From the NCBI RefSeq assembly GCF_028279465.1, contig NZ_JANQNS010000017.1:1-64000 (forward strand): a stretch of 64,000 nucleotides of DNA, written 5' to 3'. The notes under the pieces are model-generated. The model searched no databases. It was not told the origin of the DNA and saw only the letters and a list, made by a program, of their open reading frames with translations. Of this stretch, positions 45,244 to 45,981 are shown piece after piece. The DNA is from Parasphingopyxis sp. (GTDB taxonomy: Bacteria; Pseudomonadota; Alphaproteobacteria; Sphingomonadales; Sphingomonadaceae). The translations under genes were made by a program, and so were the position numbers. Numbering within the stretch: the first letter of the stretch is position 1; every line of letters begins with the position of its first letter.

Positions 45244-45981
45244 TTACCAGCCGCCTGTGCCCGGCCCGCCTTTGATCGGGCCCTTGATCCGGTCCGTAAC
45301 CCAGCCGCCGTAGAAATTCCCGGGCTGCGGCCGCGCCTTTTCCTCGCCGATGAAGCAATCGAGCTTGCCGGCGTAAATGCCGAACCAGCCGGCGATCTCC
45401 GCATAGCCTTCAGAGAGATCGTCGAACGGATCGGGATAGTTCCATGCCGCCTCCGCAATGCGGATCGGTTTTTTGGTCAGACCTTCGCTACGCTCAGGCG
45501 CGGCACCAGCCCACTCCCCCTCCCGGCCTCCCAACAGGGTACACTCAATGGGAGGACGGGAGGGGGAGTGGGCTGGTGCCGCGATTTTCCGCGAGGAAAA
45601 TTCTGACAAAGAAGCGTTCCCGCCCGGCAGCGCGAGATCGTAATAGAGCGTCGCGCCCTTCCATTCGCACACGGTGAGCCGGCTTGTGTCTTCCAGCCAT
45701 TCAGTCCGCACATCCTCGGGCCGGATATAGGGCACGGGTGCCCCGGCCGTCTCCTTCACCTCCAGCGCACAATCGCTCTCGGCAATCGCGATATCGCCCA
45801 GCATCACGCGGACCGGGCCGGGCACCGGCGCGATGATCGGCGGGCGCGGATAGTCCCACACCGATTCCTCGCCCTCGCCCACCGGCTCGACGCCCGGCGG
45901 GCGGAAGCTGCGGTCCCAATTGTCACGATAGGGCTTTGCGCGTTCGAGCAGGGCGGCTTTGTCGGGCAGCGGGGTTGGCAT
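45244..45981 (-). CDS. DUF427 protein with in-frame palindromic element insertion
   Basis: A 245-residue protein with two DUF427 parts: ESVWDYPRPPIIAPVPG and CEWKGATLYYDLALPGG, then IRIAEAAWNYPDPFDDLSEGYAEIAGWF. Between them 44 codons come from the 132-bp palindromic element at 45476-45607, translated as SEFSSRKIAAPAHSPSRPP followed by a stretch ending APERSEGLT. Without it the two halves join as in ordinary DUF427 proteins. The gene is intact otherwise: the insertion length is a multiple of three and opens no stop. The protein may still fold, with an exposed loop. DUF427 function is unknown. Confidence 0.88.
   Translation of the reverse strand: MPTPLPDKAALLERAKPYRDNWDRSFRPPGVEPVGEGEESVWDYPRPPIIAPVPGPVRVMLGDIAIAESDCALEVKETAGAPVPYIRPEDVRTEWLEDTSRLTVCEWKGATLYYDLALPGGNASLSEFSSRKIAAPAHSPSRPPIECTLLGGREGEWAGAAPERSEGLTKKPIRIAEAAWNYPDPFDDLSEGYAEIAGWFGIYAGKLDCFIGEEKARPQPGNFYGGWVTDRIKGPIKGGPGTGGW
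45476..45607. repeat. Complete palindromic element (132 bp) inside DUF427 gene
   Basis: Order: GTCAGA, a variable mini-palindrome, CGCGGCACC, a 26-base arm (45508-45533), a 15-base loop, the matching arm (45549-45574, one mismatch), GGTGCCGCG, a perfect 7-bp hairpin (ATTTTCC-GCGA-GGAAAAT) and TCTGAC. The continuous stem is 35 bp. It lies in frame (44 codons). A relative is at 1-97 in opposite orientation, and an orphan half-arm at 108-140. No transposase is present. Confidence 0.9.

Follow-up and report, generated by a model that had tools for sequence, protein, structure and literature searches.

The locus analyzed here raises the question of how a long palindrome came to lie within a protein-coding gene whose reading frame is still open. 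The gene encodes a protein of 245 residues that matches the Pfam family DUF427/NTP_transf_9 (E = 1.2e-17), and it lies in the window, by which we mean the whole 64,000-nucleotide stretch of DNA that was analyzed. Our preferred answer, which we consider probable, is that the palindrome is a copy of a non-autonomous, REP-like DNA element that would be copied by a putative enzyme acting in trans, and that this copy is tolerated in frame in DUF427. The coordinates of the relevant features are collected in Table 1.

Table 1. Features of the DUF427 locus, and of a further element copy, in the window
Feature	Position	Strand	Basis
DUF427 gene (PF04248, NTP_transf_9), 245 aa	45244-45981	-	ORF list, Pfam match, codon score
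Insert as compared to homologs: net 153 bp, 51 codons	~45460-45612		DNA and protein alignments
Tag GTCAGA after T-rich end; nearly invariant in family	45476-45481	+	tag+hairpin pattern, 119-element comparison
Small hairpin 1, CCTTCGC type, two stem mismatches	45482-45498	+	pattern, ssDNA fold
Core hairpin left arm, 35 nt	45499-45533	+	palindrome search; arm conserved in 119 elements
Core loop, ACAGGGTACACTCAA type	45534-45548		sequence, 119-element comparison
Core hairpin right arm, 35 nt	45549-45583	+	palindrome search
Small hairpin 2, ATTTTCC type	45584-45601	+	pattern, ssDNA fold
Tag GTCAGA, then AAAGAA on +	45602-45607	-	tag+hairpin pattern
Second copy, truncated: core part and two hairpin modules	1-145 (contig start)		sequence; module 64-97 listed

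The DUF427 gene and its insert

A sequence-only reading of this DNA had proposed that a palindromic element of 132 bp, i.e., 44 codons, lies in frame between two conserved parts of the DUF427 domain and adds no stop. The palindrome is real: its two arms are 97% complementary at a spacing of 15 nt, and the element is repeated in the genome. It is also correct that the ORF continues through it without interruption; the codon score of the ORF is 59.9 according to the home-made gene finder that provided our gene calls, which works with codon scores and had the window as its training set. The proposed size, however, does not hold for the insert as a whole. Based on a DNA alignment with the closest homologs (loci L041-L043), the net insert is 153 bp, its ends being accurate to within a few nucleotides, and it exceeds the 132-bp unit because the T-rich outer ends come along.

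For the protein alignment, we used 10 DUF427 loci obtained by a protein search; three DUF427-like loci (L057, L059 and L060) stand outside it. All 10 aligned homologs lack the insert, and none has the 44 residues without the palindromic DNA, which is the case that the earlier reading had named against itself. The alignment bears out the location between conserved parts of the domain: the insertion point separates conserved blocks at a place where the homologs differ by about one residue, and conserved DUF427 motifs are retained on both sides of it. This position fits a variable turn, and the turn is read from the alignment alone, a single-sequence AlphaFold model of the protein having a mean pLDDT of 34.6. 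A PDB sequence search with the protein gave no matches. With the full-length protein as query, 21 of 60 genomes (own genome counted) contain matches, but many of these are to the element alone, because the query includes it. The N-terminal part of DUF427 matches two of the nine congeners, G005 and G003. The G005 gene, whose locus (L042) is among those aligned, is without the insert, and in G003, whose N-terminal match is weak, the element is absent from the part of the locus (L059) that was inspected. No pair of an empty and a filled site was found that was near enough for a target duplication to be read.

These data bear on the possibility that the insertion killed DUF427, leaving a recent pseudogene that is open by luck. 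The conserved domain is indeed split, with the Pfam match ending at residue 121 (position 65 of 93 in the profile), and no ortholog bearing the insert was found, given the two congeners just described. However, the frame is open, and the motifs flanking the insert are kept. To judge the open frame, it is useful to consider what chance would yield. Among 116 elements, the length is a multiple of three in 38, and one or more of the six frames are open in 106 (mean 1.96 open frames); an entry that is both open and in frame is expected at roughly 0.11 per insertion, i.e., about one in nine. At this rate, no special design is needed for the DUF427 case. By the same token, the open frame is weak evidence that the gene has been kept, and a single case is not decisive. 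We regard a dead gene as possible but doubtful; under our preferred reading of a tolerated insertion, the lengthened protein may be made and may work.

Structure and covariation of the element

Members of the family share a layout consisting of a T-rich end, GTCAGA, a small hairpin, CGCGGCACC and the core hairpin, followed by the mirror image. In pairs of modules, the tags point outward and the tails inward, and extra tag-hairpin modules follow in tandem in several copies. In the own genome, a search pattern for tag plus hairpin found 80 modules, and the reversed control pattern found none. TTGTC is common at the tag, with AGA standing between TTGTC and the stem. The stem of the small hairpin is mostly 7 bp (among 238 small hairpins, the best-fitting arm is 7 in 208, 8 in 21 and 6 in 9), and at best fit it is paired throughout in 161 of the 238; the CCTTCGC type has a two-base mismatch. 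Loops are 4-5 nt in 193 of these hairpins, and 170 of 183 tetraloops are TNNC. The small hairpin directly adjoins CGCGGCACC, which is invariant in 36 aligned modules, as the search pattern demanded; in a comparison of 119 elements, CGCGGCACC is nearly invariant, with G or C at its fourth position. As a separate observation, four loci (L341, L343, L360 and L296) have one side hairpin swapped for another repeat with a CTCCG...CGGAG stem, which represents an additional type of side module.

Folded as single-stranded DNA, positions 45463-45618 form a cloverleaf, in which small hairpin 1, the core hairpin and small hairpin 2 are enclosed by the paired tags. The energy of this fold is -66.1 kcal/mol (z = -12.6), which none of 200 shuffles equals. 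The corresponding RNA fold of the DUF427 copy has -100.6 kcal/mol and prefers one long rod to the cloverleaf. We rejected a relationship to known RNA families: all 25 Rfam matches score far under their gathering scores and were put down to chance on a long hairpin. They are mostly to miRNA models, and also include the snoRNA sR44 and the alphaproteobacterial sRNA ar7 (14.4 bits versus 60).

Pairing in the small hairpins was evaluated using 36 distinct 35-base modules. The seven stem pairs are paired in 95.2% of 252 cells, whereas shuffles give 58.8%. Their covariation score of 0.856 compares with 0.210 in shuffles and at most 0.167 in slid versions; none of 500 shuffles reached either value. 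On two of the five covariation measures, i.e., double-change pairs and pair types, the modules did not exceed the shuffles (459/500 and 109/500, respectively). Only 2 of the 252 cells are G-U pairs, and this near-absence points to the pairing of DNA, not RNA. The core arms co-vary at positions 4, 10, 15, 17, 23 and 28 and are otherwise nearly invariant among the 119 elements. In the same elements, the T-rich ends outside of GTCAGA show no pairing above that expected from composition. The outer stem of the cloverleaf therefore depends on a nearly invariant 6-mer, and no longer stem is claimed.

Within an element, the two side hairpins are rarely alike. For this analysis, we combined 151 copies from nine genomes of the genus with 26 extra copies from the congener G005, and removed 39 of these 177 elements with an unreadable side, leaving 138. 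Both hairpins are alike in 3 of the 138, versus 22.1 expected. It is important to consider that many of the 151 copies were picked by likeness to the window element, and so are a non-random sample, and that three are partial cores under 60 bp. The 26 extra copies were found with a core-only pattern, chosen to lessen bias for this rule; taken alone, they have no like pairs among 19 (3.1 expected; 111 of 5000 permutations). In G005 overall, whose assembly is a single contig, like hairpins occur in 0 of 52 elements versus 9.5 expected (0 of 5000 permutations). The effect is weak in the own genome (G000), with 2 of 43 versus 5.8 expected (268 of 5000 permutations), or 2 versus 3.3 expected when identical stems are required (1707 of 5000). 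Both of its like pairs are found at the starts of contigs (C11 and C4), and false palindromes could arise there from assembly. With like side hairpins, the whole element could fold into a single rod. The rule is thus compatible with either a requirement for the junction or the loss of perfect palindromes.

Placement and distribution of copies

As the earlier reading had suggested, the genome and its relatives were searched for the element. The core occurs in at least 53 distinct places of the own genome, counted in the loci analyzed (an early tally, with 40 of 70 candidates scored, had given 40 distinct places). The element query matches 18 of 60 genomes, own genome counted, including all nine congeners, with G003 matching at only E = 5e-4. 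At least 63 copies are present in G005.

To characterize placement, we used the 151 elements from the nine genomes; of these, 129 are placeable, the remaining 22 being at stretch edges. Of the latter, 63 are between convergent genes, 56 between codirectional genes and 8 between divergent genes, while 1 is unclear and 1 is inside a called gene, this being the DUF427 copy. Of 182 flanking stop codons, 97 lie no more than 20 bp from the approximate edge of the element, as compared to 15 of 73 flanking start codons. The pattern extends to other genera, where the core has 108 of 120 flanking stops within 60 bp, versus 35 of 79 flanking starts. There, 3 of 104 placeable cores are in called ORFs; two of these form C-terminal ends, and the third is in an ORF at a stretch edge. 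Called genes contain no cores in 20 regions of relatives, some of which were picked for an element within a long open frame, or in three other loci. In two loci from other genera (L180 5164-5241 and L167 4558-4635), the core is seemingly read as a C-terminal extension of a gene called by the home-made gene finder.

At 14 sites, an element is present in at least two species with both flanks alike. The side hairpins at such sites are alike in 3 of 14 comparisons on the left and 2 of 16 on the right, i.e., 5 of 30, which approximates the 18.6 of 119 for random pairs; two left comparisons were unreadable by script, of which L278/L215 is alike by eye. This similarity to random pairs indicates that either the hairpins are exchanged or the sites are hit again. 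As individual observations, L034, L015 and L286 represent one intergenic site in three species with differing side hairpins, and between L034 and L015 the whole element appears inverted.

It might seem from its placement that the element is selected chiefly for a signaling role at the 3' ends of genes, in RNA or in transcription, e.g., as an insulator between convergent genes or for RNA 3'-end protection, and that the DUF427 copy is simply misplaced. The strong 3'-end and convergent placement, both in the genus and in other genera, is what such a function predicts, and the RNA fold is very stable. However, the purging of harmful insertions yields an identical placement, and hairpins nearly devoid of G-U pairs, an RNA that favors the rod over the cloverleaf, and hairpin types that agree at shared sites no more than in random pairs are all unfavorable to it. 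We therefore consider a role as such a signal to be somewhat unlikely.

A different hypothesis, which we put forward tentatively and think unlikely to be correct, is that the family, spread through Alphaproteobacteria, has an asymmetric cloverleaf as its unit of selection. Its conserved core hairpin would be accompanied by two obligatorily differing side hairpins, which would be exchanged as cassettes drawn from a small set, and it would be read by a structure-specific recombinase; this putative recombinase would be neither a Y1 transposase nor bound to one sequence. If so, occasional in-frame entries such as the DUF427 copy would add loops to proteins as a side effect.

Several further observations concern the positions of copies along genomes. 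On the G005 chromosome, 25 of 63 listed copies are at 2.4-2.8 Mb and none at 0.4-0.8 Mb, the list being sparse beyond 3.0 Mb. The genes parB and hemE are at 2.39-2.40 Mb, and the GC skew switches sign at 2.25-2.45 Mb and 0.5-0.7 Mb, although it is near zero at 2.56-2.73 Mb. Among the copies listed, those of G005 thus seem to gather toward the origin side. In the congener G002, the interval 1.88-1.99 Mb contains 9 of 19 listed copies, and parB is at 2.11 Mb. In the own genome, where loci of known copies were checked, an element or module is at most 250 bp from 16 of 42 contig ends, including the truncated copy at the start of the window. The repeat seems to break assemblies, and these contig ends can serve as a warning to users of assemblers.

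Beyond the genus, an exact pattern for both arms of the core matches at least 117 stretches of named genomes. Among the 80 matches listed are Sphingomonas, Sphingopyxis, Novosphingobium, Hephaestia, Stakelama, Qipengyuania, Parerythrobacter and Neoroseomonas, as well as MAGs labelled Kiloniellales and Rhodospirillales. These names suggest that the host of the element in DUF427 is a sphingomonad as well. The parts outside of the core differ in other Alphaproteobacteria. In even samples with the own genome counted, 24 of 386 genomes from the class contain the core, and 22 of these belong to families other than the own. From the phylum, 9 of 397 genomes contain it, namely the own genome, 7 of its family and one with a 23-base match elsewhere. 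Going by these matches, the distribution of the core across Alphaproteobacteria appears patchy. Two plasmid records, from Sphingomonas sanguinis and Novosphingobium resinovorum, match the query over its core half alone (51-52% of its length).

A patchy distribution, together with terminal inverted tags and T-rich ends, would also suit a MITE belonging to an ordinary insertion sequence of the DDE type that has short inverted repeats at its termini. We view this explanation as quite improbable, given that the internal hairpins vary among copies, and among species at shared sites, with their pairing kept, which is unexpected for a MITE.

Proposed origin and comparison with known systems

Returning to the REP-like element that we favor, its origin is probably as follows. 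Two outward GTCAGA tags, each beside its own small hairpin and flanking the long GC-rich core hairpin, would allow the element to form a cloverleaf, i.e., a four-way junction, either as a single strand or when extruded from supercoiled DNA. A putative trans-acting enzyme would recognize the folded DNA and copy the element to new places. Copies would persist mainly between genes, often just past stop codons, where they do the least harm. One copy entered the DUF427 gene at the variable turn, and the gene stayed open, seemingly gaining 51 residues, because the length of the insert is a multiple of three and the required frame is free of stops.

For a repeat with a core that occurs across Alphaproteobacteria, these results provide a sharp, testable rule, namely that an element is expected to have two unlike side hairpins. 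The DUF427 gene is, in addition, an example of a repeat that lengthens a reading frame without breaking it.

REPINs are inverted pairs of tagged hairpins that are mobilized by RAYT (Y1) transposases. The elements described here likewise contain inverted pairs of tagged hairpins. Unlike for REPINs, Y1_Tnp (PF01797) has no match in the own genome, which is an estimated 99.99% complete, nor in 7 of the 9 congeners, the other two having matches. We therefore rejected a Y1 transposase as the mover in the own genome.

The literature that we searched, with subscription journals mostly outside it, contains no description of this GTCAGA-tagged core-hairpin family; the excerpts of PMC12306157 and PMC4741004 (plasmid Rep) have no bearing on it. 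The sequence-only reading had invoked Rickettsia palindromic elements (RPEs), which are reviewed in PMC10969869, as a precedent. Compared by description with the excerpted text of that review, the precedent stands in that both are palindromic, are of similar size and are read through in frame in an unrelated protein. It does not extend to location, since RPEs are frequent within ORFs, whereas only 1 of 129 placeable copies here is in a called gene.

The elements also resemble the CGTC-tagged REPs that Di Nocera et al. (2013, PMC3733652) described in Alphaproteobacteria. According to the excerpted text of that paper, these have an unpaired CGTC or TGTC tag at one end, a stem of 8-9 bp, a loop of 4-5 nt and a short unpaired tail, mostly CCA. 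Head-to-head dimers predominate, spacers with complementary ends are described, RPE-4 and RPE-6 are CGTC REPs, RAYT is linked to GTAG REPs, and in-frame intragenic REPs were found in the sphingomonads E. litoralis and S. alaskensis. Tagged REPs are therefore already known, sphingomonads included, and so are their heterodimers, their placement at 3' ends and their intragenic copies in frame. Our elements share with CGTC REPs the short tagged hairpins in inverted pairs, with many heterodimers and a location near gene 3' ends, as well as the loop length, some in-frame copies, the lack of a dedicated transposase and sphingomonad hosts. They differ from the REPs in that text by the tag TTTGTCAGA, by a stem that is mostly 7 bp, by CGCGGCACC where those REPs have a short tail like CCA, and by a conserved 35-bp core palindrome that is present in several orders of the class.
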